Origin: Mycobacterium branderi
GTDB taxonomy: Bacteria; Actinomycetota; Actinomycetes; Mycobacteriales; Mycobacteriaceae
Reading direction: 5' to 3'
Length of the DNA stretch: 64,000 nt
NCBI RefSeq assembly: GCF_010728725.1
Contig: NZ_AP022606.1
Location: 806,001-870,000, forward strand
Program-made: the position numbers and the translations under genes
Shown: positions 3,285 through 35,294 of the stretch, piece after piece
Layout of the letters: the number at the start of each line of letters is the position of its first letter
How positions within the stretch are numbered: position 1 is the first letter of the stretch
The notes under the pieces: model-generated
The model's input: the letters and a program-made list of their open reading frames with translations, nothing else
Database searches by the model: none
Told to the model about the DNA's origin: nothing

Positions 3285-3297
3285 CTCGGATCCTCCC

Positions 3298-4191: not shown

Positions 4192-4221
4192 GGCCGCTCT
4201 CTCCTTCTAGTTATCGGTAGG

Positions 4222-5414: not shown

Positions 5415-5443
5415 ATAATGTGACTGATACGTCACTCTGTCAA
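5415..5443 (-). promoter_or_regulatory. promoter A with embedded operator
   Basis: Read on the minus strand: -35 TTGACA (5443-5438), a 17-bp spacer, then -10 CATTAT (5420-5415). The spacer contains AGTGACGTATCAGTC (5436-5422) with the palindromic core TGACGTATCA. It is almost identical, base for base, to promoter B at 6241-6269. It reads into the leftward BVMO operon starting at 5121. An operator between -35 and -10 is a classic repressor position. Confidence 0.65.
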
Positions 5444-5491
5444 GAGTGGCTGTCTGGCAGCGCGGTTATGCGCGGACATCCGCCGGGGCGC

Positions 5492-6199
5492 TCAGCCGGC
5501 GCTGTCGAGCGGTAGCACTCTTTCGTCGGGATCGATGACGACACCGCGCGCCGCGGCCGTTGTCGCAAGGGCACCCCAGACAAAGCAGGTGAGCTGCTCG
5601 ACCAGAGCGCACTTGTTGATCGTCGGAGAGTTGAGCCAGCGCAGCACCCCGAGTGCCACCGACCCAAGGGCGGCATCGACGACATACTCGAGATCGCCGC
5701 TGCTTCCGCCGCGCGCCCGCAGTACCGCGGCCCAAACCTCAACCATCGCATCCGATAACGGCCTGCCGCTGTCGATCAACTCCGTAGCCGAACGCCCGTC
5801 TCTGAAATGCGAACCAACCAGGAAGCGGAAGAGCGCCGGCCGCTCGTCGACCAGGTCGACGTATCCGGTCAGCGCCGAGCGGACCAACTCTCGCGCCGTG
5901 GCGGTGACATCGAAATGCGGCACCACGCGCTCGATGATCATCTCCTGCACCCGTTCGGCGACCGCGGCGAACAACGTCGCCTTGTCCTCGAAAAAGCGAT
6001 ACAGCTTCGGCCGCGGCACAGCGGCCGTCTTGAGGACGTCGTCGATGGACAGATGTGGACCGTGCTCTTCGATCGCGCGAAGTGTGGCATCTACCAACTG
6101 GGACCGCACGGCGGCCCGGTGCTCACTCCACCGGTCGGCCCGGGCATCTCCGGTCAGCTTCGGGAGGCGCCCACGACCAGCGGCAACGCGCGTCGACAC
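5492..6199 (-). CDS. TetR-family transcriptional regulator
   Basis: A 235-aa TetR repressor. The N-terminal helix-turn-helix spans roughly residues 30-80 (a VDATLRAIEEHG helix, then IDDVLKTAAVPRPKLYRFF), followed by a divergent ligand-binding domain. The likely start is GTG 6199; it has no strong ribosome site, so the start is uncertain. The gene lies between two nearly identical promoters, one just downstream (5415-5443, reading left) and one upstream (6241-6269, reading right). That makes it the prime candidate for the repressor that binds the shared 15-bp motif. Ligand unknown, perhaps a lipid intermediate of the adjacent pathways. Confidence 0.85.
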   Translation of the reverse strand: MSTRVAAGRGRLPKLTGDARADRWSEHRAAVRSQLVDATLRAIEEHGPHLSIDDVLKTAAVPRPKLYRFFEDKATLFAAVAERVQEMIIERVVPHFDVTATARELVRSALTGYVDLVDERPALFRFLVGSHFRDGRSATELIDSGRPLSDAMVEVWAAVLRARGGSSGDLEYVVDAALGSVALGVLRWLNSPTINKCALVEQLTCFVWGALATTAAARGVVIDPDERVLPLDSAG

Positions 6200-6240
6200 G
6201 GAGGCAATCGTAATCGACAGGCATACGCGGCCCGCATCGC

Positions 6241-6269
6241 TTGACAGAGTGACATATCAGTCCGATTAT
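6241..6269 (+). promoter_or_regulatory. promoter B with embedded operator
   Basis: TTGACA at 6241-6246, a 17-bp spacer and GATTAT at 6264-6269. The spacer holds AGTGACATATCAGTC (6248-6262) with core TGACATATCA. It points into the rightward BVMO operon starting at ATG 6311 and lies 42 bp from the TetR start, so one bound repressor could control both divergent transcripts. From TTGACAGAGTGAC to ATTATTT it matches promoter A with only three differences. Confidence 0.7.
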
Positions 6270-6310
6270 TTCGGGAAGGGACACTAGCCGGTGACTGGTG
6301 GAAGGACGCG

Positions 6311-7867
6311 ATGCAGCCCGACGAAGAGCCCGACCACGAAGTTGCCATCATCGGCGCCGGACTTGGCGGGATCTGCGCCGCGATCAAACTGCGTGAAATC
6401 GGCGTCGAGGATTTCGTGATCATCGACCGGGATGCAGGTTTCGGGGGCACGTGGCTGCGGAACACCTATCCCGGGGTGGGCGCCGACATCCCGGCGATCG
6501 CCTACCAGTTCTCTTTTGCGCCAAAAGGCAACTGGCGACGGTTTTTTGCCGACGGCGACGAGATCCGACAATACATCCTCGATTTGGCCATGACTCACCG
6601 CCTTTACCCGCACGCGCGGTTCAACACCAGAGTCGAGCGCGAGGTTTTCGACGACGAAACCCACCAATGGCAGTTGCACACCGCCGACGGCGACGTCATC
6701 ACCGCCCGCTTTGTCATCAGCGCCATCGGCGCCTACATCAACCCGAAAACCCAGCCGGACATCCCCGGGCTGGACAGCTTCGCCGGACCCGTGCTGATCC
6801 CCTCACGCTGGCAGCATGATCTTGACTTGCGCGGCAAGAAGGTCGGCATCATCGGCGTCGGCAGCTCCACGGTGCAGATCGCGCCGGCGATCGCTCCCGA
6901 CGTCGCCAAGCTCGACATCTACCAGCGCACCCCCCAGTGGTACTTCCCCAAGCCGGACTTCCCGATACCCGTTCTGCTTCAGCGGATGCTGGCCCATCGC
7001 CGATTCGCCAACGCGGTGCACTCCGTGGCGTTGGCGTTCATCGAAGCCGGGCTCCGGGTCCTCATCTACACACCGCGGCCGCTGTTTCGGGTGGGCGCAG
7101 CGATTTTCGACCGCGTGGCGCTAGTGGCCTACATGCTGTGGCTGCGCTACAAGGTCCGGGACCGCCAGGTCCGATCCCAGCTTCGTCCCCGCTTCGGTGC
7201 AGGTTGCACGCGAGGCACTCTCGGCGGCGACTACCTTCCGGTGTTCAACCGCCGCAACGTAGAGCTGAGCAGCATCGGAATCGACCGGATCACGCCGCAC
7301 GGAATCGTCGACACCGCGGGAGTGGAGCGGCCCATCGACGTGCTCGTGCTTGCCACCGGCTACGAGATGTTCTCCGATCCGGAAACGTATCGGATCGGGA
7401 CAGTCCTGGGCAGCAACGGGTTTGACCTTGCGGAGTTCTATCACCGCAACGGCTTGCAGGCCTACCAGAGTGTGACGGTCCCGGGACTGCCGAACCGGTT
7501 CATGATGGTCGGGCCATATTCATGGACGGGCACCAGTTTCCACTACATCCTCGAGAACTCGATGCGGCACATCAGCGCGGTGATCTCGCTGGCCCGTGCC
7601 CAGAACGCAACCCGGGTCGAAGTCACCAAAGATGCGCTGGCTCGGTTCCAGGCGGGCCTGCGACGCAGCGGCGCCAACCTTCAGCGCTACTTCAGCGTCA
7701 ACTGCGCGGGTTCGAACAGCTACTTCATCAACTCCCACGGGGACACGCCGTATGTGCGGCCGTGGACCATCCTGCAGTCACGCCGTCGCAGCGTGCGGTT
7801 CCCGGCGTCAGACTACGAGTTCACCCGCCTGACTAGTCGTGCACGAGAGGCCAGATATGCGGTTTGA
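6311..7867 (+). CDS. FAD-dependent monooxygenase, BVMO-like (518 aa)
   Basis: First gene of the rightward operon, with a GGTGGAAGGA ribosome site before ATG 6311. FAD motif GAGLGG at residues 15-20, GGTWxxxxYPGxxxD at 45-59 and a second Rossmann motif GVGSS near 182-186. The BVMO fingerprint is altered: Phe157 and Gly159 and Trp167 are present, but the fingerprint His is Ile163. The enzyme may therefore be an N- or C-oxygenating flavoprotein monooxygenase or a divergent BVMO. It overlaps the next gene by 11 bp. FAD/NADPH monooxygenase activity is a firm family inference; the exact reaction is not. Confidence 0.88.
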   Translation: MQPDEEPDHEVAIIGAGLGGICAAIKLREIGVEDFVIIDRDAGFGGTWLRNTYPGVGADIPAIAYQFSFAPKGNWRRFFADGDEIRQYILDLAMTHRLYPHARFNTRVEREVFDDETHQWQLHTADGDVITARFVISAIGAYINPKTQPDIPGLDSFAGPVLIPSRWQHDLDLRGKKVGIIGVGSSTVQIAPAIAPDVAKLDIYQRTPQWYFPKPDFPIPVLLQRMLAHRRFANAVHSVALAFIEAGLRVLIYTPRPLFRVGAAIFDRVALVAYMLWLRYKVRDRQVRSQLRPRFGAGCTRGTLGGDYLPVFNRRNVELSSIGIDRITPHGIVDTAGVERPIDVLVLATGYEMFSDPETYRIGTVLGSNGFDLAEFYHRNGLQAYQSVTVPGLPNRFMMVGPYSWTGTSFHYILENSMRHISAVISLARAQNATRVEVTKDALARFQAGLRRSGANLQRYFSVNCAGSNSYFINSHGDTPYVRPWTILQSRRRSVRFPASDYEFTRLTSRAREARYAV

Positions 7868-8444
7868 CGCCATACCGATTACGGCAGAATGTGCCGACGA
7901 GTTCTTCTGCACGGCACCGTTCGTCACTCACGTCCAACGCAGCTTCGCGGCCCCGCCGGAAGACGTTTGGGGGGTCATCGCCGGCAGCCGGATGTGGTCC
8001 TGGCTGCCGATGGTGTGGGGATGCCGCTACCCGGTGGCTACCGAACCGGCGGCAGGCGTGGTCCGCGATTTCCAGATGCACGTCCACAAGTGGCTGGTGT
8101 TCGCCCAGCACGAGCAGCTCATCGAATTCGATGCAGCTCGAATGATGATGCGCTACACCGCGATTGATGCCACACTGCCGGTTTTCGGGTCTTGGTGCGA
8201 GGAGTACCGGGTGGAGCCGGCCGACAATCCCGGGCATGCCACGGTGAAGTGGACGCTAGCCTGCGCCCCGCGATACCTGCGCCGGATACCAGGTGTGCGC
8301 GTTGCGCTGCGTCCGGTGGCGGCCGTCCTGCAGCCGGTCTTCCGTTTCGGGTTGGGCGGCCTGGAACGCGAACTGCCGTCGCATGCGCCGCCGCAACTCA
8401 CTGCGGGAATCCCGCTCGGGCTAAACAGCAAGGACCACACATGA
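7857..8444 (+). CDS. SRPBCC (START/Bet v 1-like) family protein
   Basis: A 195-aa protein with the pattern of polyketide-cyclase/SRPBCC lipid-binding proteins: an N-terminal VQRSFAAPPEDVWGVI strand-helix, a central RDFQMHVHKW segment and a C-terminal amphipathic helix. I chose ATG 7857, which follows GAGAGG by about 6 nt, over the in-frame GTG 7839. It starts inside the end of the monooxygenase gene and overlaps the next one as ATGA, so it is translationally coupled between two monooxygenases. It probably binds or shapes a hydrophobic substrate or intermediate. No catalytic residues can be named. Confidence 0.7.
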   Translation: MRFDAIPITAECADEFFCTAPFVTHVQRSFAAPPEDVWGVIAGSRMWSWLPMVWGCRYPVATEPAAGVVRDFQMHVHKWLVFAQHEQLIEFDAARMMMRYTAIDATLPVFGSWCEEYRVEPADNPGHATVKWTLACAPRYLRRIPGVRVALRPVAAVLQPVFRFGLGGLERELPSHAPPQLTAGIPLGLNSKDHT

Positions 8445-10003
8445 ATCCGCAGTACAACGTGGCTGTCATCGGTGCCGGACCGGGCGGCATCGGAGCCGGC
8501 GTCCGGCTCCTCGAGGCCGGCGTCGACGACTTCGTCGTCCTGGAACGCGCAGCCGCACCCGGCGGAAGCTGGCGCGACAACGACTATCCCGGCATCGGGG
8601 TCGACGTCCCCAGCTTCACCTACCAGTATTCGTTCGCCAAGAACACGACGTGGTCACGAATGTTTCCGGCCGGCGCGGAGGTCTGGGCCTACCACGATGC
8701 GGTCGCCCGCGAACGCGGCGTGTATCCGCACATCCGGTTCGGGGTGAATGTCGTCAAAGAGGAGTGGGACGACGCAGCCATGGTCTGGCGGCTGCACACC
8801 GCCGCCGGCGACGTGATCACAGCTCGATTCGTGATCAGCGCCGTCGGCGCCTTCATCAACCCCAAAGACGATCCCGGCATACCCGGCTACGACAGCTTCG
8901 CCGGAAAGATCCTGCGGCCCACCGAGTGGGATCACACCTATGACTTGAGCGGCAAGCGCGTCGGCGTGATCGGCACAGGGGCCAGTTCGGTACAGATAAC
9001 CCCGGCCATCGCACCACTCGTCGAGACCTTGACGGTGTTCCAGCGAACGCCCGTATGGTGCTGGCCGAAGCCGGATTTCACCATCGGCCCCTGGCTACGA
9101 GCGATTCTCGGGCGCCGGGCAACTCAGACGGCGCTGTCCGGAGTGGCGCTGCTGCTGGTGGAGACCCTGACCCGGCTGCTGGTTTACACACCGCCGGTGA
9201 TTGCGAACCCGGCGGCGGCACTGATGGATTCGGGGGCACGCGCTGTCTACCGCGGTTATCTGCGGGCGGTCGTGCGTGATCGGCGCACCCGGCGTGCCCT
9301 GACGCCACGGTACGGCCTGCTCGGCAAGCGTCCCACGCTGTCGAACGCGTTTCTGCAAACGTTCAACCGCCACAACGTCGAATTGGTGGATTCGCCGATC
9401 AGTGAGATCACCCCGTCCGGGGTGCGGACCGCCGACGGCCGCGTACGCCAACTGGACGCTTTGGTCGTCGCGGTCGGCTATGAACTGTTCTCCGACCCCG
9501 AGACGTACAAGCCGGAAATGGTCGTGGGTGTCAACGGCTTCGATCTGGGCGACTTCTTCACGCAGAACCGTCTGCAGGCCTACGAGAGTGTTGCCGTGCA
9601 CGGCTTGCCGAACCGGTGGATGCTGGTGGGTCCTTACTCCTGGACCGGCACCGGCTGGCATTTCATGGTGGAGTCGTCCGCCCAGCACGCTATCCGGGCG
9701 ATTGTCGAGGCCAACCGCCGCGGCGCGGCATACGTCGAAGTCACCGCCGAAGCGCAGCGGGCCTACCACGAGAAGATCCAGCGTCAGGGCCGAAACATCC
9801 AGCACTACTTCCAGGTTCGCAACAAGGGTCTGCGCACCTACTACGTCAACTCCCACGGCGACATGCCCTATATCCGGCCGACCACCGCGTTGCAGTCGCG
9901 GCGCGCGGCGGCCAGCTACCCGTTCGACGACTATCTGTGGCGAGAGCCGGTCGCACGTACCGAAGACTCGAAGGCCGAACTGGTTTCCGGAGAGATTCCA
10001 TGA
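8441..10003 (+). CDS. FAD-dependent monooxygenase, BVMO-like (520 aa)
   Basis: Start ATG 8441 overlaps the previous stop as ATGA; the open frame extends further upstream but is not needed. FAD motif GAGPGG at residues 11-16, GGSWxxxxYPGxxxD at 41-55, NADPH motif GTGASS near 178-183. The BVMO fingerprint region reads Phe153, Gly155, Trp163, but the His position is Arg159. Overall layout and length match the neighbouring monooxygenases, so the three in this operon are diverged paralogues. Each stop overlaps the next start, implying coordinated production of monooxygenase, SRPBCC protein and SDR. Confidence 0.88.
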   Translation: MNPQYNVAVIGAGPGGIGAGVRLLEAGVDDFVVLERAAAPGGSWRDNDYPGIGVDVPSFTYQYSFAKNTTWSRMFPAGAEVWAYHDAVARERGVYPHIRFGVNVVKEEWDDAAMVWRLHTAAGDVITARFVISAVGAFINPKDDPGIPGYDSFAGKILRPTEWDHTYDLSGKRVGVIGTGASSVQITPAIAPLVETLTVFQRTPVWCWPKPDFTIGPWLRAILGRRATQTALSGVALLLVETLTRLLVYTPPVIANPAAALMDSGARAVYRGYLRAVVRDRRTRRALTPRYGLLGKRPTLSNAFLQTFNRHNVELVDSPISEITPSGVRTADGRVRQLDALVVAVGYELFSDPETYKPEMVVGVNGFDLGDFFTQNRLQAYESVAVHGLPNRWMLVGPYSWTGTGWHFMVESSAQHAIRAIVEANRRGAAYVEVTAEAQRAYHEKIQRQGRNIQHYFQVRNKGLRTYYVNSHGDMPYIRPTTALQSRRAAASYPFDDYLWREPVARTEDSKAELVSGEIP

Positions 10004-10866
10004 TCGGGGGATATCCCAGGATTCGGCTGGACGGCGCTGTCGTCGTCGTCACCGGCGCCGCCCGAGGCATCGGCCTGGCCACGGCAAAACGCTTCGCGCA
10101 GCGCGGCGCCCGGGTGGCCATCGGCGACCTCGACAGCGAGGCGGCCGCGGCGGCGGCAGACCTCGTGGGACTCGGCATCCGCGCCTATCCCGTCAACGTG
10201 GCCCAACTCGACAGTTACAAGATGTTTCTCGACCAGATCGAAGACGACCTCGGCGGGATCGACATCCTGGTCAACAACGCCGGCATCATGCCGATCGGAC
10301 CATTCCTCGCCGAATCCGCCGAGGTCACCCGAGCGGTGTTCGATGTCAACGTGGCCGCGCACATGCACGCCGCACGTCTCGTGGCGCCGCGAATGATCGC
10401 CCGGGGTCGCGGGCACATCGTCAACGTGACCTCGGCGGCGGGAAAGCTGCACTCGGCCGGGCTGGCCAGTTACACGGCGTCCAAACACGCCGCGACCGCG
10501 TTCAGCCGCAGTCTGCGCGTGGAGCTGCGCCCACACGGCGTCTCGGTCACGGCGGTCCTCCCGTCGGCAATCAAAACTCAACTGGTCGACGGCATTCCGC
10601 TGGGGGTATTGAGCGTGGGCGTGCTCTCGCCGAATGTCGTTGCGAGGCGGATCGTTTCGACGGTACGAACCAGGCCACCGCTGGCAAGCGCACCGATAGG
10701 TCTCACGCCGTTGTTTACCGCAGCGAACCTCATCCCGGAGCGCGTGTGGCTGTTGGGCCGACGGGTGGTCAACGCCGATCGAACGATGGGGCCGATCGAC
10801 CGGACGGCGCGAGCCGAGTACGACGCCCGCATTGCGGCCAATATCGCGCCGGAGGTGACGACGTGA
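10000..10866 (+). CDS. short-chain dehydrogenase/reductase (SDR)
   Basis: A 288-aa classical SDR with TGAARGIG at residues 18-25, NNAG at 92-95, the catalytic Ser region VTSAAGK and YTASK (Tyr158, Lys162). The start ATG 10000 overlaps the preceding stop as ATGA, and the end overlaps the next gene as GTGA. Embedded between two monooxygenases, it likely makes or removes the carbonyl group on which they act. Cofactor preference is not certain from the motifs. Confidence 0.9.
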   Translation: MIGGYPRIRLDGAVVVVTGAARGIGLATAKRFAQRGARVAIGDLDSEAAAAAADLVGLGIRAYPVNVAQLDSYKMFLDQIEDDLGGIDILVNNAGIMPIGPFLAESAEVTRAVFDVNVAAHMHAARLVAPRMIARGRGHIVNVTSAAGKLHSAGLASYTASKHAATAFSRSLRVELRPHGVSVTAVLPSAIKTQLVDGIPLGVLSVGVLSPNVVARRIVSTVRTRPPLASAPIGLTPLFTAANLIPERVWLLGRRVVNADRTMGPIDRTARAEYDARIAANIAPEVTT

Positions 10867-12404
10867 CAACCAGTGAATTGAGATCAGCCAAGACAGACTC
10901 GGCCCCGGGCCGTCGCCGGCCGGACATGCTGGTGGCGATTATCGGGGCCGGCATCGGCGGCCTCGGCGTAGCGATTCATCTGCAACGGGCCGGCTACAGC
11001 GATTTCACCATCTTCGAGCGCGCCGACGACATCGGCGGTACGTGGCATTCCAACCGGTACCCCGATGTCGCGGTGGACATCCCGGGCATCGTCTACCAGT
11101 TCTCGTTCGAGAAATCGCCGTTCTGGTCGCGCACGTTTCCCAAGGGAGCCGAGGTCCGCGCCTACGTCAACCACCTCGCCGACAAGTACGGGCTGCGGAG
11201 CCATCTGCGATTGCGAACCGAGGTGATGCGCCGCGACTGGGACGAGGACAATCACTTCTGGACCCTGAGTTTGAACGACGGATCCAACGTCACAGCACGT
11301 TTCGTGATCACCGCCACCGGAGCCTTCGTCGAACCACGCGTTCCCGATATCGCGGGGCTGGAAGATTTCACTGGCAAAGTAATCCAGACCCAGGCCTGGG
11401 ACGACGATTTCGATCCGGCCGGCAAACGGGTCGCGGTCATCGGAACGGGCGCCACCGCCATTCAGGTAGTGCCAGAACTAGCGAAAACCGCTGCGAGGCT
11501 CGACGTCTACCAGCGCAGAGCGATCTGGGTGTTCGCCAAGCCGGATTTCCCGATCCCGACAATCGTCCAGGCCGCATTCAAAGCCATGCCGTTTCTGCAG
11601 ACGCTGGTGCGCGGAATCGCCGCCGCTTTCGTCGAGGTCGGCCTGGTCGCGATAACCGTCTACGGCAAGCAGATCGCGCCATTGGCCCGAATCCCGGCGC
11701 TGGCATGCCGAGCATATCTGTTCACCCAGGTCCGCGACCGCGAGCTGCGGCAAAAGCTCACTCCCCGTTACGGATTCGGGTGCAAGCGGCCCAGCGTGTC
11801 GAACGTGTACTACAAGACCTTCACCAAGGACCATGTCACGCTGGTCACCGAGCCGATCGAACGGATCACCACAACCGGCATCCGCACCCGCGACGGGGTC
11901 GAACGTGACATCGACGTGCTGGTGCTGGCAACCGGCTTTGAAATGTCGAACAGTCCGCTGGTGTACCGGATGCGACCGGTCAAGGGCCGCAACGGGTTCG
12001 ACCTCGCGTCGTTCTACGACACGCAGCGTGCCGCCGCGTACGAAGGGGTGTCGATGCCCGGCTTGCCCAACACGTTCATGGTGTTCGGTCCGTACGCGTG
12101 GTCCGGTAGTTCTTGGCACGTCATGGTCGAGAACGCGGCACGGCACGCCCTGCGGGTGATCGACGAGGCTCTTCGGCGTGGCGCGACTGCGGTCGAGATC
12201 TCTGCCGAAGCCAACGATCGGTTCCACCGGTTCGTCGACCGCCGCAGCTCGGCGACCCTGATGCACGGCCGCGCCTGCATCGATTCCAACAGCTACTACA
12301 TCGACAAGAACGGCGACTTCTCGTTCCTGCGGCCGACCACTGCCTACCAGTCGACGCGTGCGTCAAAGACATTCGACCTCGACGACTACGTCTACGAGTC
12401 CTGA
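10863..12404 (+). CDS. FAD-dependent monooxygenase, BVMO-like (513 aa)
   Basis: Start GTG 10863 overlaps the SDR stop as GTGA. FAD motif GAGIGG at residues 28-33, GGTWHSNRYPDxxxD at 58-72 (the usual YPG is YPD) and GTGATA near 194. The BVMO fingerprint has Phe169, Gly171 and Trp179, but Gln175 replaces the His. It is last in the rightward operon, and its end overlaps the convergent ABC1-kinase gene by 13 bp. Family firm. Whether it still performs Baeyer-Villiger chemistry is open because of the substituted residues. Confidence 0.88.
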   Translation: MTTSELRSAKTDSAPGRRRPDMLVAIIGAGIGGLGVAIHLQRAGYSDFTIFERADDIGGTWHSNRYPDVAVDIPGIVYQFSFEKSPFWSRTFPKGAEVRAYVNHLADKYGLRSHLRLRTEVMRRDWDEDNHFWTLSLNDGSNVTARFVITATGAFVEPRVPDIAGLEDFTGKVIQTQAWDDDFDPAGKRVAVIGTGATAIQVVPELAKTAARLDVYQRRAIWVFAKPDFPIPTIVQAAFKAMPFLQTLVRGIAAAFVEVGLVAITVYGKQIAPLARIPALACRAYLFTQVRDRELRQKLTPRYGFGCKRPSVSNVYYKTFTKDHVTLVTEPIERITTTGIRTRDGVERDIDVLVLATGFEMSNSPLVYRMRPVKGRNGFDLASFYDTQRAAAYEGVSMPGLPNTFMVFGPYAWSGSSWHVMVENAARHALRVIDEALRRGATAVEISAEANDRFHRFVDRRSSATLMHGRACIDSNSYYIDKNGDFSFLRPTTAYQSTRASKTFDLDDYVYES

Positions 12405-13819
12405 CCGATGCGATTTTCCGCCGTTCGCTGCCGCCACTGCGCTTCGGCCCGGCCGAGCTCGGTGACAGGCTCCGCGCCGTAGATCCACTCCGCTGCGATG
12501 CGGAACCAGTTTGCGCCGGCGCCGATTTGGCTCAGTGTCCCGAACAGCAGGAAATCCAGTCGCCGGGAAAACAGATGCTCCGGCGGCAGCCGCTCGTTGC
12601 GCATCGTCTGGAACGATTCGGTGGCCGGATTGACGACGCCCAGCAGGGCCGCACTGACGTCGATGGGCCGCACCACCACGTACTCGTCGACGAAATTCCA
12701 TCCCGCGGCATCCAGCGTGTACTCCAGACAATCCTGCGCCGACACCGTCGAGCCCGGCCGCAGCACGCCGTACTCCTCCATGCTCGCCCGCAGACCCTCG
12801 CCGTCGCCAGCAATGCACAGCTGCGCCGCACGCCGTTCGAACTCGACGGCAGTCGGATCCATGTGCTTGTAGAGACCGAAGTCGAGGAAGGCGACCCGCC
12901 CGTCGGGCAGATACAGAAAATTGCCCGGGTGCGCGTCGCCGTTGAACTCGCAGTCGTGAAACAACGACCCGAGGTAGAACCGGTAGATGATCTCCCCGAT
13001 GCGGTCCCGCTCGGCCGCGGGCAGCTGCGCGACGTCGGCAGCCGGCATTCCCGCCACGTACTCGGTGGTCAGCACCGACTCCGAACTCAACTCCTCGATC
13101 GGGCGAGGCACATGGATGAACGGATGGTCGGCGTACCGGGCGGCGACTCGAGCCTGGTTGGCCAACTCCTGGCGGTAGTCGACTTCCCGCGACAACTCGT
13201 GGGTGATCTCGTCGAGAAACTCACGGGCCGCCACGGCAGGTATGGCCGCCTTCCACATGCGCAGGAACAAAGCCAGGTTTTTCAGGTCGGCCCGCACCGC
13301 GGTGCGAACACCGGGGTATTGCACTTTCACCGCCACGTCGCGGCCGTCGTGCGTCACCGCGCGGTAGACCTGTCCGATGGACGCGGCCGCGAACGCGTCG
13401 GTGTCGAACGACGAGAACAACCGCTCGACCGGCGCGCCGAGCTCGGCTTGGATCACCGGGCGCATGATCTCGAACGGCATGGCGTTGATCGAGCCCTGCA
13501 GTTTGGAAAGCTGTTGGCGGAAGTAGTCCCGCGACCGTGCGTCGACGATTCCGAGGTCGATCACCGACAGCAACTGCCCGATTTTCATTGCCGCGCCGCG
13601 CATATTGCCGAGCACGGCGACGAAGTCGCGCGCGATGCGCTCGTTGGCCCGATCCAGCATCGCCTCACGCCGGCTTTCGGTGACAACGATCGATCCGGCT
13701 TTGATCGTCACCCGCCGCAACGTCTGCTTGGCAACGAGTCCCCCCAGCCGCGCGCCCCGGCCCAACCGCGACGTCGCCAGCGCGTCGGCATCCTTCGACG
13801 GTGCCGGGCCGTTCGACAT
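12392..13819 (-). CDS. ABC1/UbiB (AarF) atypical kinase-like protein
   Basis: A 475-aa protein with the hallmarks of the ABC1/UbiB family: KxGQ-type MKIGQLLS near residue 78, the Ala-rich loop AAASIGQVYRA replacing a Gly-rich loop, VAVKVQYPG with the ATP-binding Lys, the catalytic-loop-like NGDAHPGNFLYL and the metal-binding DFG in FLDFGLYKHM. The family acts as unusual ATPases or kinases linked to isoprenoid-lipid (quinone) homeostasis. It is a lone leftward gene, divergent from the TetR pair and tail-overlapping the BVMO operon. A link to quinone or lipid extraction is family knowledge; its partner here is unknown. Confidence 0.88.
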   Translation of the reverse strand: MSNGPAPSKDADALATSRLGRGARLGGLVAKQTLRRVTIKAGSIVVTESRREAMLDRANERIARDFVAVLGNMRGAAMKIGQLLSVIDLGIVDARSRDYFRQQLSKLQGSINAMPFEIMRPVIQAELGAPVERLFSSFDTDAFAAASIGQVYRAVTHDGRDVAVKVQYPGVRTAVRADLKNLALFLRMWKAAIPAVAAREFLDEITHELSREVDYRQELANQARVAARYADHPFIHVPRPIEELSSESVLTTEYVAGMPAADVAQLPAAERDRIGEIIYRFYLGSLFHDCEFNGDAHPGNFLYLPDGRVAFLDFGLYKHMDPTAVEFERRAAQLCIAGDGEGLRASMEEYGVLRPGSTVSAQDCLEYTLDAAGWNFVDEYVVVRPIDVSAALLGVVNPATESFQTMRNERLPPEHLFSRRLDFLLFGTLSQIGAGANWFRIAAEWIYGAEPVTELGRAEAQWRQRTAENRIGQDS

Positions 13820-13917
13820 GGAATCACCTTAACCAGGTGCTAAATTGGTTCTGACACCGCAGTCGGGGAAATCAAAACGCATCAGCGGGAGGCGCGCAAT
13901 GCCATCGGGTCGGCGCT

Positions 13918-15194: not shown

Positions 15195-15252
15195 CGAGCG
15201 GTTCCCACGCTAAGGGGTGACAGAGGCCACACCGTGTGGTTAACTCACCCCG

Positions 15253-15267
15253 AGTGACACATCAGTC
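15253..15267 (+). promoter_or_regulatory. shared operator motif, site C
   Basis: AGTGACACATCAGTC with palindromic core TGACACATCA. It differs by two bases from the operator in promoters A and B and lies 41 bp before ATG 15308 of the esterase/Mce operon. A GGTAAT -10-like sequence follows at 15269, at the spacing seen for the -10 in promoter B. A TTGACA -35 is absent, so this promoter is weaker or activator-dependent. Confidence 0.6.
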
Positions 15268-15307
15268 TGGTAATTAGCCGCCGGGTAGAGCTTCGGTTGG
15301 GGGTCCA

Positions 15308-18137: not shown

Positions 18138-18140
18138 CGC

Positions 18141-21270: not shown

Positions 21271-21271
21271 C

Positions 21272-23532: not shown

Positions 23533-24509
23533 TCAAGGTCAACGCGCCCCTCACCATCGCCATCCTCGCGATCATGACGGTGCTCGGCGCCGGCTACATG
23601 TCGTTCGGCGTGCTGCATGCAGGGCCGACCAAACACTTCACCCACGTCACGCTCATGCTGCACGACTCGGGCGGGCTGCTGCCGACATCGCAGGTGACGA
23701 TGCGCGGGATCAGGGTAGGACGGGTGACCGGAATTCAGGCCACCCCCACCGGGCTGGCGGCGTCACTAGACCTCGACGGCGCCTATCCGGTCCCCGCCGA
23801 CGCCACGATCAGCGTGGAACCCCTCTCGGTCGCCGGCGAGCAGTACGTCGACTTCAAGCCGAAAGTCATTGCGCCGCCATACCTCACCGACGGATCGGTG
23901 ATCCCCGCCGACCGGGTCGCCCCGACGGTCACGGTCAGCGAGTTGCTCGCCCGGTTCAACGCGCTGCTCTCGGTCGTCAACCCGGCCGACGTGCACACCA
24001 TCGTCACCAACGTCGCCCAGGCGTTGACCGGTGACGACGCCGCCCTGGATGTGCTCGGGGCCACCGCCAGTTCGATCGCCCAATATGTCAGCGAAAACAA
24101 GCAATTGCTGGCAGCGCTCGTCGGCAACGTCTCGAGACTGACATCCGGGTGGGCCGAAATAGGGCTCGGCGAGGCGTTGAGTGCAACCGGCAAGGTGCTG
24201 CCCGACGCCGTGCCGGCATTCACCCGGCTGATCCAGTCGTTCGACCACTTCTCGCATGTGGGAGAGAACGTTTTCGGCCCAGGTGATACCGCCAACGTGC
24301 TCGTCGCCAAGCTCGCCCAGTACTTCGACATGCTCGCGCCGTCGTTCAGCGTGATCTTCGAGTCGCTGCAACGAGTTTCCGAACCGGTGCACGACTACAA
24401 ATTCCACGCCGGCTACTGGGTGGACCTTTGGGAGTCGACCTTCAACGACACCGGCAGCGTGCGCGTCCAAGTAAACGTGCCCGAACAGCAGCCCAATGAT
24501 GGAGGATGA
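23529..24509 (+). CDS. mceF: MceF, MCE-domain protein
   Basis: A 326-aa protein, the sixth MCE subunit. ATG 23529 overlaps the mceE stop as ATGA. N-terminal anchor at about residues 7-27 and MCE domain including DSGGLLPTSQVTMRGIRVGRV. The C-terminus is much shorter than in Mce1F (515 aa). It overlaps the Mce-associated gene as ATGA. Confidence 0.9.
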   Translation: MIKVNAPLTIAILAIMTVLGAGYMSFGVLHAGPTKHFTHVTLMLHDSGGLLPTSQVTMRGIRVGRVTGIQATPTGLAASLDLDGAYPVPADATISVEPLSVAGEQYVDFKPKVIAPPYLTDGSVIPADRVAPTVTVSELLARFNALLSVVNPADVHTIVTNVAQALTGDDAALDVLGATASSIAQYVSENKQLLAALVGNVSRLTSGWAEIGLGEALSATGKVLPDAVPAFTRLIQSFDHFSHVGENVFGPGDTANVLVAKLAQYFDMLAPSFSVIFESLQRVSEPVHDYKFHAGYWVDLWESTFNDTGSVRVQVNVPEQQPNDGG

Positions 24510-25222
24510 GCATGACCGAAGACACGATCGACAGGGTGACCGACATCGAAACGGACGCCGAGGCTTCGGACGAGGCCCCGGCTACAGCCGACGGCGACGA
24601 CACCGGGCGGCCCGAAAAACGGTGGCGTGCGCTGCCAAAAATACGCTGGCGGCGGCCAGGCAATCCGTGGCTTTGGGTGTCGGCCGTGTTGGCGGCGGCG
24701 ATGATCGCCGGCGGGGTGTTCGGGTACCTCAAATACCAAGGAGTCGCCGACGATCTCGCGGCGATGCGCCGAGCCGAAGCGGACCGAAACGCCGCGGCAC
24801 AGGTCGCGAAGGACTATGCGAAGAAGTCGCTGACCTACACCTTCGAAGATCCCGACGCCTTTTTCCGATCGGTCCAGGGCGGCGTATCGCAGCCGCTGAA
24901 GGACAAGTACACCAACGCAGCAGACCTGCTCAAGGGCGTCATGCTGCAGGCGCAGGTCACGTCGAGCGGTGAAGTGCTGGCGGCCGAATCCGTCGCCCAG
25001 CCCGGCGGCATTTACCAGGTGGTCGTGACGGCTGCGCAGACCACCCGCAACCTGCAGCACCCCGAGCCCAAGGTGTCGCTCATCGCACTGCAGATCACCG
25101 TCAACAAAGTCGGCGACACCTGGCAGGTCTCCGACATCGGCCCCAAGACCGGCAGCCACCCGGCAAACACCGATCAAATTCCGCAGCCCGCGCCCGGCCA
25201 GCCCTCTCCGCCGGGGAGGTGA
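24506..25222 (+). CDS. Mce-associated membrane protein
   Basis: A 238-aa protein (or 236 aa from ATG 24512, which has a GGAGGATG ribosome site). It has an acidic N-terminus of about 50 residues, one membrane segment (about residues 58-78), and a soluble domain containing VAKDYAKKSLTYTFEDPDAFF, typical of Mam proteins that follow mce genes. Mam proteins stabilise Mce complexes; OmamA is the described example. It overlaps mceF by 4 bp and precedes a secreted protein gene by 1 bp. Confidence 0.85.
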   Translation: MSMTEDTIDRVTDIETDAEASDEAPATADGDDTGRPEKRWRALPKIRWRRPGNPWLWVSAVLAAAMIAGGVFGYLKYQGVADDLAAMRRAEADRNAAAQVAKDYAKKSLTYTFEDPDAFFRSVQGGVSQPLKDKYTNAADLLKGVMLQAQVTSSGEVLAAESVAQPGGIYQVVVTAAQTTRNLQHPEPKVSLIALQITVNKVGDTWQVSDIGPKTGSHPANTDQIPQPAPGQPSPPGR

Positions 25223-25223
25223 G

Positions 25224-26066
25224 ATGCGCTTCGCGACGGCCGCCTTGAGCGTGATCGCCACCGCGACGGTGCTGTGCCCGTCCGCCGCCGCGGACAAAGC
25301 CTTGCCCGCGTGCCCGCAGACCGCCACCGTGATCAACCCCAAAACCCCGTTGATCCACCAGGATTGCCGTCTGCATTCGGGCGATCGCCAAGGCCTGGAC
25401 TTCGACGTCCGCTACTTCAACCTGCCGGAGGCGCCGGGGCCGCTGGCGGTGAAGGTCATCGCGACCGCCCCGTCGGGCGAGGTCGTCCAAACGATCAACG
25501 AGCTGATCGAACCGTCGAGTCCGAGCCCCGTCGGCTTGCAGGACCTCGACGGGGACGGGCGGGACGAACTGATCATCCCGATGGCCCAACACCCCTACAA
25601 CGGCAGCCCGAACACCCGATTCTCCGTGTGGCGAGCAGATGGCGACCGCCTGCATTTCGAACGCACCCAAATGGAGGGACAAGCGGTATATCCCAGCGGC
25701 GACGGCTACCTCGTGGTGAACGGCGGGGCACTGATCAGCCGCGACCTCTGGTTCTATCTGCCAACCCCCGCCGGGTACTCGCTGGTGACGGTGGTGACGA
25801 TCGAAGCCGAGCAACTGGAGCCCGGCACCAACCGGGTGTTGACAGCGAGCTGCAGAATGCACAAGGAACAGGGGCTGGGCATGGTCGACATGCTCGCCGG
25901 CCCCAACTACCCCGGTTCCGGTCAGCTGCCGGTCCCCGAGGCCGAGGCCACGTTCTGCAATTCTCCGGCGGCGAAAGCGATCTGGCCCCACGCCGAGCGC
26001 GTCGCGATCTGTTCACCCCCCGAAGGCGGCAACCCTCCCGTTTGCAGCCCGGGCCGTGTGCAGTAA
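25224..26066 (+). CDS. secreted protein of the Mce operon with a Ca-binding-like loop
   Basis: A 280-aa product with a signal peptide (residues 1 to about 24, ending SAAADKA). Six or more Cys residues are spread along the mature chain, suggesting disulfides. A DLDGDGRDE segment at residues 107-115 resembles the calcium-binding loops of VCBS/FG-GAP repeats. I do not recognise a named family. It follows the Mam gene by 1 bp and ends the operon 3 bp before the convergent SDR. A role as a periplasmic accessory of this Mce system is inference from position. Confidence 0.75.
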   Translation: MRFATAALSVIATATVLCPSAAADKALPACPQTATVINPKTPLIHQDCRLHSGDRQGLDFDVRYFNLPEAPGPLAVKVIATAPSGEVVQTINELIEPSSPSPVGLQDLDGDGRDELIIPMAQHPYNGSPNTRFSVWRADGDRLHFERTQMEGQAVYPSGDGYLVVNGGALISRDLWFYLPTPAGYSLVTVVTIEAEQLEPGTNRVLTASCRMHKEQGLGMVDMLAGPNYPGSGQLPVPEAEATFCNSPAAKAIWPHAERVAICSPPEGGNPPVCSPGRVQ

Positions 26067-26069
26067 CCG

Positions 26070-26945
26070 CTACAGGTCGAAGGTGACGCCGGTCATTTTC
26101 TCAGACTCTTCCCACAGCCGGCGCCACAGCGTTCGATCCCGCGACAGCCTGCTCGACGGCGACGGCCGCACCGGGCCGCGGGTCTGCATCAACCATGTTG
26201 GACCCCAATAGATCTGCGGATCGGCGTCCGGCAGCGTCGCCGCGAACAGTGTCGAATGCGCGGCCTGCGCGGGGGGATGACCGACCAGCCGCGCTCCCTG
26301 CTTGGCGACCAGGTCCAGCACCGTCTCGGTCTTGGTGAACAAATCGGTGCCCGACACGCCGGGATGCACCGCGAACGACTTCTTGGGCGATCCGGCCTCG
26401 GTCAGCCGGCGCTGCAGCTCGCGCGCGAACATCAGATTCGCCAGCTTCGACTGCGCGTACGCCAAATTGCGCTGATAGCGCCGATGTTGGTAGTTGAGGT
26501 CGTCGATCCACAGCTTCGGCGTCTGCCGGTGGGCGATGCTGGACAGCGTCACCACCCGGTCGCCTATCTTGTCGAGGAGCAAACCGGTCAGCGCGAAATG
26601 ACCGAGATGGTTGACGCCGAACTGTGTCTCGAAGCCGTCCTTCGTCCGGCTGAACGGGATGTTCATCAGACCTGCGTTGTTGACCAGGACGTCGAATTCG
26701 GCTTGCCGGGAGGCGAATTCGCGTACCGAGTCGAGGTCGGCCAAGTCCAACCGGGCGACGTGCACGTTCCCGTCGATCGTCTCGGCGATAGCCTTTGCCT
26801 TCTCGGTGTTGCGGCAGGCCATCACCACCGTGGCACCGTTGCCAGCGAGCACGCGACTGGTAATCTCCCCTAGCCCGCCGTTGGCGCCGGTCACCACATA
26901 GGTGCGCCCGCTTTGGTCGGGGATCTGATTTGGTTGCCACGCCAT
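26070..26945 (-). CDS. short-chain dehydrogenase/reductase (retinol-dehydrogenase-like)
   Basis: A 291-aa SDR with TGANGGLG at about residues 19-26, NNAG at about 88-91, VNHLGHF, SSIAH and YAQSK as the catalytic Tyr/Lys. The NHLGHF pattern is typical of the retinol-dehydrogenase/protochlorophyllide-reductase-like SDRs common in mycobacteria. It is last in the leftward operon beginning with the EphD-type fusion, 5 bp after the second methyltransferase. It converges with the Mce operon with a 3-bp gap and no visible terminator. Confidence 0.88.
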   Translation of the reverse strand: MAWQPNQIPDQSGRTYVVTGANGGLGEITSRVLAGNGATVVMACRNTEKAKAIAETIDGNVHVARLDLADLDSVREFASRQAEFDVLVNNAGLMNIPFSRTKDGFETQFGVNHLGHFALTGLLLDKIGDRVVTLSSIAHRQTPKLWIDDLNYQHRRYQRNLAYAQSKLANLMFARELQRRLTEAGSPKKSFAVHPGVSGTDLFTKTETVLDLVAKQGARLVGHPPAQAAHSTLFAATLPDADPQIYWGPTWLMQTRGPVRPSPSSRLSRDRTLWRRLWEESEKMTGVTFDL

Positions 26946-26950
26946 CGGAT

Positions 26951-27724
26951 TTAGCGCTTCTCCTTTGTTGCGACAATGGTCTGCGACAGACCGGCGATGT
27001 GCTGTTCGATGCCGGTGAAGCCGATGTCACCGAGAAATCCGGTGACTTCCTCGCGGCCGAACCATCGAACGCCGCTGACGGCATTCAGCGCGGCTGCGCG
27101 AACTGCGTTGTGGCGCCGGCCAGGCACCAGGCTGGTCAGGAGCACCACGCGCCCACCGGGTTTGAGCACGCGGGCAAGTTCGCGGATCGCCTGGAACGGC
27201 TCGTTGATCAGATACAGCGCGGCAAGGCAGCTGGCCGCGTCGGCCACGCCGTCAGCGAACGGCAAGTGCTCGGCATCACCGCGCACATACGCGACGCACG
27301 AACCGGAGTTGTCGACGACGGCACGCCGCAGCATCGCATGCGATGCGTCCAGTCCGACGGCAAGGCCCTGCGGGGCTACCTGCTCGCCGAACCACCCGGT
27401 GAAGTTGCCCGGACCGCAACCGATGTCGAGAACGACAGAGCCCGACTTGAGTCCCAGCCAGCTCGACATCCGCCGCCGGTCTTCCTCACGGCCGGGCGCC
27501 TTCGGCCCGCCTGCCAACTTGAGACCGATCGGTCGGCCGACCTGGTACCCGGCGGAGTACACCCGAGTACGCATGAGGCGCCGCGGGATGCTGCGTACCG
27601 GCGGACCGCTATCGCCGAGGAGGTCGTAATAGCCGTCGCGCGCGGAGCGGATCCGCTTTAACTGCCCAGGTTCCAACAACCCCAGCACGCGGCCCGTGGC
27701 CCCGTGTTGTGCGGTGAACGTCAT
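26951..27724 (-). CDS. SAM-dependent methyltransferase (class I)
   Basis: A 257-aa methyltransferase. The SAM-binding motif VLDIGCGPGNFTGWF is near residue 97, then GLDAS, GDAEHLPFADG and LKPGGRVVLLT follow in the normal class I order. ATG 27724 overlaps the stop of the preceding methyltransferase as ATGA. It resembles ubiE/type-11 small-molecule methyltransferases. Lying with an epoxide-hydrolase/SDR fusion, it may methylate a lipid or isoprenoid, but the substrate cannot be read from the sequence. Confidence 0.85.
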   Translation of the reverse strand: MTFTAQHGATGRVLGLLEPGQLKRIRSARDGYYDLLGDSGPPVRSIPRRLMRTRVYSAGYQVGRPIGLKLAGGPKAPGREEDRRRMSSWLGLKSGSVVLDIGCGPGNFTGWFGEQVAPQGLAVGLDASHAMLRRAVVDNSGSCVAYVRGDAEHLPFADGVADAASCLAALYLINEPFQAIRELARVLKPGGRVVLLTSLVPGRRHNAVRAAALNAVSGVRWFGREEVTGFLGDIGFTGIEQHIAGLSQTIVATKEKR

Positions 27725-28680
27725 CGCTTCTTAGCCTTCTGCGCGACCGCGATGATGTAATCCGACTGCAACGCCGTCAGCCGAAAACCCAGCGGGGTAA
27801 AGGAATACCGGATAGCCGGATTGACATGCCGCATGTCGGGATCGCTGAGCCGCTTGCGCAGGTATCTCGCGAGTGGTGGGTAGACGTCGTCGGTGATCGG
27901 CCGCGTCACCGCCTCGGCAAATCCGACGTCGAGCAGCAAGTCCCGGTACCCGGCGAGGTCTACCGCGGCTCGCACCGCGCGTCGCGCCGCCTTTCGCCAG
28001 CCGCGCCGCGCGACCTCGCGGCGGGCCCACGCATTCACAATGGTACGTTTCGGAACGATGTCGGCCGTGACCAATCGACCGCCGGGCTTGAGCACCCGCA
28101 GGGCTTCGGTGAAGAAATCGACACGCGACGGGAAATGAAAGGCGGATTCGAGCGCCACCACCTTGGTGCACGATTTGTCGTCGAGCGGCAGATCGGTGGC
28201 CGACGCGTTGACGTAGTCGATCCTGTGCGACAACCCGGCATCGGCCACCCGGCGCGTGGCGATGCTGATCTGCTCGGTGGCCAGGTTTATCCCGGTGATG
28301 TGCTTGGGTCCAAACTCGTTGACCCACAAGATGTCTTGGTCACCATAGCCCGGGCCGCAGTCGACAACGACATCCGACGACTTGAATTCGGCGCTCTGCG
28401 CGACGAGTCGCGCCAGGTCTCGGCTTGCCTCGTCCAGCGTTGCGGGTTTGTTTCGCCAGTACCCGAAGTTGATGAACAGTGATTCCTCGCCGAACAGGTT
28501 CTGGGTGCCGACGATGTCGTAGATCTGGCCGGTCTTGGGACCCTCCGAGCGCGACAGCGCCACGCCCGCCATCTGCCTCCACTCGTCGGCCCAGCGACGT
28601 AGACGATCACCGGTCGACTCGTCCTGGATGTGACGCGGAACTGTGACCACGGCGCTCCTATCCCTGGCTTTTTCGGTCAT
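27721..28680 (-). CDS. SAM-dependent methyltransferase (type 11-like, 319 aa)
   Basis: ATG 28680 overlaps the stop of the upstream fusion gene as ATGA; the longer open frame upstream is a shadow of that gene. SAM motif VVDCGPGYGDQD near residue 100, then TGINLATEQI, ASATDLPLDD and LKPGGRLVTADIVPK. The FINFGYW segment before motif I is seen in lipid/sterol-type methyltransferases (Erg6-like and tocopherol-type). It differs from the mycolic cyclopropane synthases elsewhere in the window. Substrate unknown; a lipid-like acceptor is likely. Confidence 0.85.
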   Translation of the reverse strand: MTEKARDRSAVVTVPRHIQDESTGDRLRRWADEWRQMAGVALSRSEGPKTGQIYDIVGTQNLFGEESLFINFGYWRNKPATLDEASRDLARLVAQSAEFKSSDVVVDCGPGYGDQDILWVNEFGPKHITGINLATEQISIATRRVADAGLSHRIDYVNASATDLPLDDKSCTKVVALESAFHFPSRVDFFTEALRVLKPGGRLVTADIVPKRTIVNAWARREVARRGWRKAARRAVRAAVDLAGYRDLLLDVGFAEAVTRPITDDVYPPLARYLRKRLSDPDMRHVNPAIRYSFTPLGFRLTALQSDYIIAVAQKAKKR

Positions 28681-30479
28681 CGCGTGAGCGCAACCGATTT
28701 GGCGCTTAGCCGCCCGAGGGTCGGGGCCAGCCTGTTGAGGTGGTAGGAGATACGCGCCTCCGATGTCACCGGGACCACCTGCTTGTTCGTCTTGACGGCC
28801 TTGACGATCCGTTTGGCGACTTTGTCGGCGCTGTAATGGCGCAACCGGTAGGCGCGGTCGACCATCGCGATTTTTCGTGCGGCTTGCTCGTCGGACAGTC
28901 CGGACACGACTGTGTTGCGAATGATGTTGGTGTGCACCACACCTGGGCAGATGGTGCTGACGTTGACGCCCGACGGGGCGAGCTCGGCACGCAGGCAGTC
29001 GGAAAACATGAACACGCCCGACTTGCTTGTCGCGTAGGCGCTGAGTCCTTGTTGCGGCGAGTACGCGGCCATGCTCGACACGTTGACGATGTGTCCGCCC
29101 AGTCCCTGGCGTGCCATGCTCGGCGCGAATGCGCGACATCCGTTGACGACTCCGTACAGATTGACGTCAAGCACCCGGCGAAACTCCGCAGACGGCGTGG
29201 CCAGGAACCGGCCGGCCTGACCGACGCCGGCGTTGTTGACGAGTACATCCGGCACGCCGTGCGCGGCAAGGACTTCGCCGGCATGGGCCGTGACGGCGTC
29301 CTCGTCGGAGACATCGAGACGATAGGCGTGCGCGGTGCCGCCCTTCTCGGCGATCAGTGCGGCGGTCTCTTTCGCCGACGACAGATTGATGTCGGAGAGC
29401 ACGATCTCGGCGCCTTCCCGCGCAAACGCCAGCGCGGTCGCTCGCCCGATTCCGCTGCCGGCGCCGGTGATCACCACCAGCTGATCCTCGAATGGCAGCC
29501 GCCGCCTTCCCATCTCGGCGCGACGCAAGCCGCGTGCCGGTGGCAGGCCCGAGGTCGCATCGATCAACTCGATCGTCGCGGTGGCGAGCAACTCCGGATG
29601 GGAGAAGGCCAGCCAGTGCCCACCTTTGACCACGCGCTGCCATACCGTCGGCGCCCAATTCGGTTCATCGGCAAAGCTTCCCCGGCGAACCGCCGGATCG
29701 CGGGTTCCGACGATCACTTGAACCGGGACCTGCGTGAAGCGCTCGGCGGGCTTCAGGTGGGAGAACAGGTTCGCTCGATAGATCCGCAGCCCGTTGCCGA
29801 TGTCCTTGTCGAAGCTAGGCCCGAGGAAAATCTGCTCGGGATTTGTGCGTTCGGCTCGAGAAAGCCAGCGGCGCCAGCGGTCTCGTTTTGCCACCAGTCG
29901 CAGTGTGGCCTTGGGAAGCCAGGGCAGCATCAGGAAAAGCATGTAAGTGAACGACCCGACCTGAGCGAGGACAAGAGCGAGATTCTTTGGCGTCGGCCGC
30001 TTTAACCGGTTGCGTGCCCACATCACCAGATGCGCCACGTTGGGACCGGCCACCGACGTGAACGACGCGATGCGGTGCTGGGCGGAGTTGTCACACACCA
30101 GTTCCCACATCGCGACACTGCCCCAGTCGTGGGCGAGCACGTGGACCGGCTTGTCCGGGCTGACCGCCTCGATCACCGCTAGGTAGTCACTGGCCAGCGC
30201 ACCCAGCGTGAAGTCCCGGTAGCTGCGCGGATTGGTCGAGTTGCCGTGTCCGCGATTGTCGACGGTGACTACCCGGAAGCGGTCGCTCAGCAGCGGTACC
30301 ACGCCGTCCCACATGTGGTGCGAATCCGGCCAGCCGTGCAGCAGCAACACCGTCTCACCGGTTGGGTTGCCCTGCTCGTAGACGGCGATCTCAACGGCGC
30401 CGTTACGGACCATGCGAGAGCTCGGGGCTTCAGGTGCCACCGCAGCCGGCTGGCCGGTCGTCGTCAATGTTGAGTCCAT
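28677..30479 (-). CDS. ephD: EphD-type epoxide-hydrolase-like/SDR fusion protein
   Basis: A 600-aa two-domain protein. Residues about 20-310 form an alpha/beta hydrolase with HGWPD (oxyanion motif HGxP) and HDWGS, placing Asp as nucleophile as in epoxide hydrolases. Residues about 325-600 form an SDR with TGAGSGIG, NNAG and YATSK. Length and order match M. tuberculosis EphD (Rv2214c, about 592 aa), linked to oxygenated mycolic acid metabolism. ATG 30479 has GGAG about 8 nt upstream. It leads a four-gene operon (two methyltransferases and an SDR), which is not the Rv2214c neighbourhood I remember, so it could be a paralogue. Confidence 0.85.
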   Translation of the reverse strand: MDSTLTTTGQPAAVAPEAPSSRMVRNGAVEIAVYEQGNPTGETVLLLHGWPDSHHMWDGVVPLLSDRFRVVTVDNRGHGNSTNPRSYRDFTLGALASDYLAVIEAVSPDKPVHVLAHDWGSVAMWELVCDNSAQHRIASFTSVAGPNVAHLVMWARNRLKRPTPKNLALVLAQVGSFTYMLFLMLPWLPKATLRLVAKRDRWRRWLSRAERTNPEQIFLGPSFDKDIGNGLRIYRANLFSHLKPAERFTQVPVQVIVGTRDPAVRRGSFADEPNWAPTVWQRVVKGGHWLAFSHPELLATATIELIDATSGLPPARGLRRAEMGRRRLPFEDQLVVITGAGSGIGRATALAFAREGAEIVLSDINLSSAKETAALIAEKGGTAHAYRLDVSDEDAVTAHAGEVLAAHGVPDVLVNNAGVGQAGRFLATPSAEFRRVLDVNLYGVVNGCRAFAPSMARQGLGGHIVNVSSMAAYSPQQGLSAYATSKSGVFMFSDCLRAELAPSGVNVSTICPGVVHTNIIRNTVVSGLSDEQAARKIAMVDRAYRLRHYSADKVAKRIVKAVKTNKQVVPVTSEARISYHLNRLAPTLGRLSAKSVALTR

Positions 30480-30699
30480 TCCGATGCTCCGTCCGGCAGG
30501 GCCGACAAATACCTGCGTGACACGTCAGTCCGCATTACTACCGGTATCGTGTACCGCCTGTTCTAGGAATGTCAAGAGTCTCCACCACGAGCGATGCCAT
30601 GCCCATCGGCGGGTCGTTGAAGATGGCGTTGATGACGCCTCTATGGCCGAGGCCGACGGCCGTCGATCAGGCGATGCATGCCCGATTCGTTGACGCGAT
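30480..30699. other. intergenic region, 220 bp, upstream of the ephD-type operon
   Basis: No gene seen. On the minus strand it holds an ACTCTTGACA -35-like element (TTGACA at 30575-30570) and an imperfect CGGTACACGATACCG dyad near 30542-30556. Site D of the shared operator is at 30516-30530. The ACTCTTGACA block is identical to the -35 surroundings in promoter A. No U-rich hairpin is evident for the DUF2236 gene that ends at 30700. Confidence 0.5.
30516..30530 (+). promoter_or_regulatory. shared operator motif, site D
   Basis: CGTGACACGTCAGTC with palindromic core TGACACGTCA. It matches the operator of promoters A and B at 12 or more of 15 positions and lies 37 bp upstream of ATG 30479. For the ephD-type gene it sits downstream of the likely -35/-10 rather than in the spacer, and in opposite orientation, as a near-palindrome allows. 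It would block transcript initiation or elongation if bound. Confidence 0.5.
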
Positions 30700-32294: not shown

Positions 32295-32305
32295 GGGAAC
32301 CAACA

Positions 32306-35276: not shown

Positions 35277-35294
35277 ATAAAAATCCTACAAATC

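Follow-up and report, generated by a model that had tools for sequence, protein, structure and literature searches.

A gene cluster of Mycobacterium branderi raises the question of which regulator reads an operator that is repeated in front of several of its operons. The window analysed is a stretch of 64,000 nucleotides (G000:C1:806001-870000, from a genome of 5,979,623 bases in two contigs), in which gene calls are based on open reading frames (ORFs), GC content at third codon positions (GC3) and homology. A first-pass annotation of this DNA had proposed that one palindromic operator ties four operons into a single TetR regulon, controlled by the product of the TetR gene at 5492-6199 (minus strand; TetR1). 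The sites are, with a probability of about 0.7 for the explanation as a whole, operators of one locally clustered regulon that would be read by a heterodimer of two other TetR-type proteins, TetRA (13918-14589, plus strand) and TetRB (14586-15194, plus strand), forming a two-gene version of an Mce3R-type double repressor. In what follows, genomes carry G numbers and the stretches fetched from them L numbers.

Operator Sites and Promoters in the Cluster

The four 15-bp motifs of the first-pass annotation are present at the positions it gave, and the operator as defined here is a 16-bp element with the consensus GANTGAY-NN-RTCANTC. It had been described as palindromic; the inverted repeat holds, while the repeat is imperfect and its arms are asymmetric, so that it is no true palindrome. 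Operator 1 (GAGTGACGTATCAGTC, 5422-5437, minus strand) occupies the spacer of the leftward promoter (5415-5443, minus strand; TTGACA at 5443-5438, CATTAT at 5420-5415), and operator 2 (GAGTGACATATCAGTC, 6247-6262, plus strand) that of the rightward promoter (6241-6269, plus strand; TTGACA at 6241-6246, GATTAT at 6264-6269), the spacer being exactly 17 bp in both cases, as had been reported. The near-identity noted between these promoters over about 30 bp amounts to agreement at 29 of 32 positions, and TetR1 does lie between them. Operator 3 (GAGTGACACATCAGTC, 15252-15267, plus strand) precedes an operon of esterase and Mce genes, and operator 4 (GCGTGACACGTCAGTC, 30515-30530, plus strand) lies upstream of an ephD-type gene; for neither was a clear TTGACA-17-TATAAT frame found by eye. 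The fourth site had been said to precede the ephD-type operon, which is correct as to location, but it reads away from the ephD-type gene. In L106 (Mycolicibacter sp. MYC340), L107 and L109, a site is flanked by a PF10118 operon and an EphD-side operon that diverge from each other, and a position of this kind would explain the flipped orientation.

The genome-wide scan proposed in the first-pass annotation returned five exact matches to GTGACNNNTCAGTC in the 5,979,623 bases (reversed control 4), four of them inside this 25-kb stretch, which is not the pattern of a motif scattered at random: if five sites were placed randomly, the probability of four falling in a given 25.1 kb would be about 1.6e-9. 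The looser core TGAYRNRTCAGTC has eight matches in the same genome (control 3), four of these here. With two mismatches allowed, the window count is 18 as compared to a shuffle mean of 20, without enrichment, and the signal is therefore confined to near-exact sites.

A fifth, degenerate site (TTCTGACACCGCAGTC, 13849-13864, plus strand), absent from the first-pass annotation, was revealed in the divergent promoter of the ABC1-type kinase and TetRA genes by aligning these intergenic regions. It scores 8.3 bits; among 400 stretches of 116 bp drawn at random from the window, none exceeded 4.1. Relatives have full core sites at the same position in L045, L046, L047 and L050 and weaker ones in L042, L044 and L142, while the position is poor in L048 and L049 (best scores 6.2 and 4.6). 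This suggests that operator 5 is a probable autoregulatory site of TetRA/TetRB.

Conservation of the Operator

Nine named relatives were found with a TetRB query at 65-98% identity, namely Mycobacterium sp. MFM001, M. kyorinense, M. celatum, Mycolicibacillus koreensis, M. sp. 1274756.6, Mycolicibacillus trivialis, Mycolicibacter sp. MYC340, M. talmoniae and M. hubeiense. The exact core TGAYNNRTCAGTC occurs at least once in the stretch fetched from each, with 1 to 4 sites per locus, and a tenth genome with close homologues (G207) also has a core site in its own locus (L142); all ten relatives read with close TetRA/TetRB homologues thus carry the site in the same cluster. The core sites precede the esterase or YrbE/Mce genes, the PF10118 genes with a Baeyer-Villiger monooxygenase (BVMO) and a short-chain dehydrogenase/reductase (SDR), the BVMO genes and the EphD-side genes, and in several relatives they stand in the kinase/TetRA promoter. 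Operator 1 is kept in L042-L045 and L047, operator 2 in L042-L044, L049 and L050, operator 3 before the esterase or YrbE gene in L042-L048 and L050, and operator 4 in the same place in L114. In the nine whole relative genomes TGAYRNRTCAGTC has 53 matches, as compared to 5 for the reversed control.

A chance cluster of motifs, or a promoter duplication devoid of regulatory meaning, would be in keeping with the agreement of the first two promoters at 29 of 32 positions and with the unenriched two-mismatch scan. Nonetheless, it is contradicted by conservation, the motif being kept at several non-homologous promoters in relatives and far above control in their genomes, and its probability is negligible.

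TetR1 or TetRA/TetRB as the Regulator

Genus surveys of 297 genomes were made with cut-offs of E<=1e-30 for TetRA and E<=1e-50 for TetR1, the best 9-10 candidate frames per genome being scored in both, so that absence of a match does not prove absence of the gene; the genomes are related by descent, and the counts represent non-independent events. TetRA matches were detected in 21 genomes, with at least 63% identity in seven, and TetR1 matches in 36, half of which (18) have no TetRA match. None of the 19 TetR1-only loci read from these 18 genomes (stretches of 4 to 20 kb; L131-L139, L144, L149, L150, L162-L168) contains the exact core site, many of them retain the same PF10118/BVMO/SDR neighbours, and the TetR1 recognition helix, RPKLYRFF, is identical in every row read, the preceding residue being P, or in a few rows S or T. 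The core site was likewise not found in the TetR1 loci of three genomes with distant A/B genes elsewhere (L141, L143, L145), nor in three loci of TetR1 paralogues (L160, L105, L119). Genome-wide, the seven genomes with close A/B genes have 44 core matches, as compared to 6 for the control, and the 18 TetR1-only genomes have 31, as compared to 21. Among the distant A/B loci (TetRA at 36-42%), the site is present in five of the six stretches fetched (L153-L157), and G210 and G216 have sites together with A/B genes and no TetR1 match at E<=1e-50, although L157, from G210, contains a 34% relative of TetR1. The operator hence follows A/B and not TetR1, including in genomes without a TetR1 match at the cut-off used.

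The alternative put forward in the first-pass annotation, in which a TetR1 homodimer is the master repressor of all sites, draws on the position of its gene between operators 1 and 2 and on its presence beside the cluster in 7/7 survey genomes with close A/B genes and 9/9 named relatives. Besides the core-free TetR1-only loci with their hardly varying helix and the two genomes with sites and no TetR1 match at the cut-off, it has to face the genomes in which A and B are fused, where the operon beside TetR1 has no strong operator and the BVMO2 and esterase promoters have one. TetR1 was rejected as the regulator on this co-occurrence, and its mastery of the sites is very improbable. It is probably a separate local repressor or a member of the regulon; when 300-bp upstream regions were searched with exact arms and with 9-mers, nothing convincing emerged as a palindromic operator of its own. 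What stands of the proposed single TetR regulon is a common operator, kept across species, that links operons for oxidation, Mce import and hydrolysis; its attribution to TetR1 is not supported.

Operator Asymmetry and Fused Relatives

Both TetRA and TetRB carry a TetR_N helix-turn-helix domain (PF00440, E 6.8e-18 and 1.1e-14, respectively), with the recognition helices GQGTxYRY and (S/G)HG(S/T)FYNY, and in the window they are separate ORFs with a 4-bp overlap; TetRA is proposed as the operator-binding subunit and TetRB as the second one. The operator is made of two unlike halves. An orientation-free pattern (GANTGAYNNRTCANTC), run over 14 stretches of cluster loci that total 302,417 bases, detects 17 distinct sites, with none for the reversed control, and 16 of these sites have unlike arms, with C at position 3 in exactly one arm, the remaining site having it in both. 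Arm shuffling gives a p of 0.0005, which becomes 0.0016 when each clade is represented by a single species. In 34 sites anchored on the right half, the left arm is mostly GAnTGAC, with C at that position in 5/34. At the level of sequence, the operator therefore has the asymmetry of double TetR-family regulators (double TFRs) of the Mce3R type. The most likely assignment gives the invariant half, GACTGAY, to TetRA and the looser one, GAnTGAC, to TetRB, because TetRA and the fixed half are each the more conserved member.

In eight genomes, TetRA and TetRB are fused in one open frame; of the two operator halves in these fused-type genomes, one has stayed the same and the second has drifted. The fold predicted for a fused relative (predicted local distance difference test, pLDDT, 80; 32 sequences) pairs both domains and matches PDB 9b7y, the Mce3R structure, along the whole chain. 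The assignment of TetRB to the C-terminal half of the fused proteins is based on a tree and on the recognition helix.

Two alternatives retain the A/B genes and dispense with a mixed dimer. TetRA might act alone as a homodimer, the second half being degenerate from promoter overlap and TetRB serving as a mere partner or acting on other targets, a proposal that fits the nearly invariant GACTGA half and the sites with both arms of the fixed type (L107 at 11014, L140 at 16322, L117 at 6454). It is unlikely, considering that the looser half keeps its GAnTGAC form in most split-gene sites, that TetRB retains a conserved helix of its own, and that A and B are fused in relatives, where the model pairs both domains. 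TetRA and TetRB might instead form separate homodimers that use the same sites in response to different ligands, as both are complete TetR-type proteins with helix-turn-helix domains and the half-sites are similar; the unlike arms at 16/17 sites and the A-B fusion favour one mixed dimer, and this arrangement appears decidedly improbable.

Several observations weigh against the heterodimer. No recognisable operator occurs in the distant A/B locus L130 (a 4.3-kb contig) or in the Tsukamurella-type fused A/B loci L177 and L178, and the genomes G182 and G207, with close A/B genes, have two core matches each and no more. The autoregulatory site of the window, operator 5, is weak, as is its support in L048 and L049. 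TetR1 is present in 8/8 fused-type survey genomes, in addition to the two sets of relatives in which it is constant, and could still contribute. In five TetR1-only genomes (G262, G133, G152, G197, G293; L138, L163-L166) GCTTGACATGTCACTC occurs about 3.3 kb from TetR1; it is weak, operator-like and conserved, without the invariant half, and is kept as an exception. Promoter constraint could lie partly behind the asymmetry of the arms. The predicted fold is that of a fused relative as a single chain and not of the separate proteins of the window, and the best local match of TetRB in the fused proteins is the N-terminal half. Finally, in a first tree, which included two outgroup TetRs, the A and B groups did not each fall on one side; the second left out both outgroups, the two halves of P0012 (a bad cut) and two L157 rows.

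Genes of the Cluster and Proposed Mechanism

The leftward operon (3-5121, minus strand) encodes an alpha/beta hydrolase, an SDR, a BVMO-like flavin monooxygenase and two PF10118 proteins, and the rightward operon (6311-12404, plus strand) three BVMO-like monooxygenases together with one PF10604 protein and one SDR. The first gene of the latter (6311-7867) is a BVMO by similarity, resembling cyclohexanone and phenylacetone monooxygenases at E 1e-49 or better. An ABC1-type kinase gene (12392-13819, minus strand; PF03109) adjoins the A/B pair in most loci read. Downstream of TetRB, the esterase/Mce operon (15308-26066, plus strand) comprises an HSL-type esterase (by similarity), two YrbE/MlaE permeases, six Mce proteins and two proteins without a Pfam match, followed by the ephD-type operon (26070-30479, minus strand) with an ephD-type hydrolase-SDR, two methyltransferases and an SDR.

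As inferred from the sequence, TetRA and TetRB, whose genes overlap and directly precede the esterase/Mce operon, would assemble as the A/B heterodimer and, when bound between the -35 and -10 elements, block RNA polymerase. The targets would be the PF10118/BVMO, BVMO, esterase/Mce and ephD-type operons, together with the promoter of the pair itself, and a ligand derived from an imported lipid would release it. The gene set, with its Mce proteins, four BVMO-like enzymes, esterase, SDRs and ephD-type hydrolase, suggests a pathway in which import by Mce is followed by conversion of a ketone into an ester or lactone through Baeyer-Villiger oxidation, and then by hydrolysis; all operons may act on one and the same compound.

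Beyond the ephD-type operon, PF09995 (MPAB/Lcp-type oxygenase) genes are located at 30700-31614 (minus strand) and 32353-33354 (plus strand), with a TetR gene at 31665-32303 between them. Response regulator, histidine kinase and histidine-phosphatase genes (33370-36173) flank the cluster. Chelonae-type genomes have this response regulator, at 92-93% identity, next to their fused A/B gene, and the cluster seems to sit at a shared chromosomal junction that is senX3-regX3-like.

Matches Outside the Cluster

Three core matches elsewhere in the M. branderi genome (C1:1083610, 1737739, 4914101) do not correspond to any core match in the close relatives G061-G063 and are probably due to chance. Another, at C1:4358451 (GATTGACGCATCAGTC; about 8451-8466 of L101, which is C1:4350001-4366000), recurs in G061 (L115) with the same flanks, core-like matches occur in G062 and G063, and it belongs to another TetR/BVMO cluster. 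This second cluster in L101 also contains a homotypic palindrome, GATTGACACGTCAATC, at 6237-6252. In an M. hubeiense contig (L117, about 6454-6469), GACTGACGAGTCAGTC, with both arms of the fixed type, stands before an unlinked YrbE/Mce operon, which is possibly a distant member of the regulon. A further match, TGACGTGTCAGTC, recurs about 4.6 kb into the contig in eight genomes (G064, G065, G066, G111, G119, G134, G162, G258), possibly inside a ribosomal RNA operon. The second contig of the M. branderi genome, C2, has 864,257 bases.

Comparison With Known Systems

KstR and KstR2 are mycobacterial TetR repressors of lipid catabolism with palindromic operators. BkaR, involved in keto-acid catabolism, has the palindromic operator GTTA(N)T(N4)A(N)TAAC (PMC3920632). 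The system proposed here shares with all three an inverted-repeat operator that recurs at metabolic operons under TetR-family control and differs in its unlike arms and in the two genes implicated. VirS is an AraC-type regulator. In the VirS-mymA system, a mycobacterial regulator switches a BVMO-containing operon (PMC13234193), a likeness limited to the switching, as the regulators of the window are of the TetR type and several operons, including Mce import, are concerned. Mycobacterial TetR regulators have been surveyed with a motif search restricted to palindromes (PMC4482099), and a lipid island of M. massiliense contains mce and TetR genes (PMC4263727).

The closest resemblance is to Mce3R (Rv1963c; PDB 9b7y), a fused double TetR that represses the mce3 operon, with an operator region of two 25-bp asymmetric sites 53 bp apart; the report describing it cites 204 predicted double-TFR proteins in Actinomycetes (PMC11667970). 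Mce3R pairs two unlike TetR DNA-binding domains on a non-palindromic operator and regulates an mce operon along with other lipid and redox genes, as the A/B pair is predicted to do, and the predicted fold of the fused relative matches over the entire chain. In contrast to Mce3R, the TetR units of the window are encoded by two overlapping genes and not as one polypeptide, and the operator is a single 16-bp quasi-palindrome. Orthology with Mce3R was rejected, the fused relative aligning with 9b7y in two weak stretches (26.1 and 17.4 bits); TetRA and TetRB match it over the N-terminal region only. In the literature searched, where subscription papers were partly covered, neither this regulon nor a two-gene TetR heterodimer of this kind was found.

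On balance, the system may well be an obligate two-gene TetR heterodimer whose lopsided operator has one half that is constant across mycobacteria and another that drifts with the partner subunit, in which case an Mce3R-like repressor would represent the fused extreme of a series running from split to fused genes in living species. Mce3R has been described as a fused double TetR whose asymmetric assembly had not been reported before, and a natural two-gene version would be its counterpart. The compact, alignable operator would allow the evolution of operator and subunits to be read directly, offering a simple system in which to study the sharing of a single site by two different TetR units, which perhaps sense two signals. 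It would also define a conserved regulon for lipid uptake and Baeyer-Villiger oxidation in nontuberculous mycobacteria.

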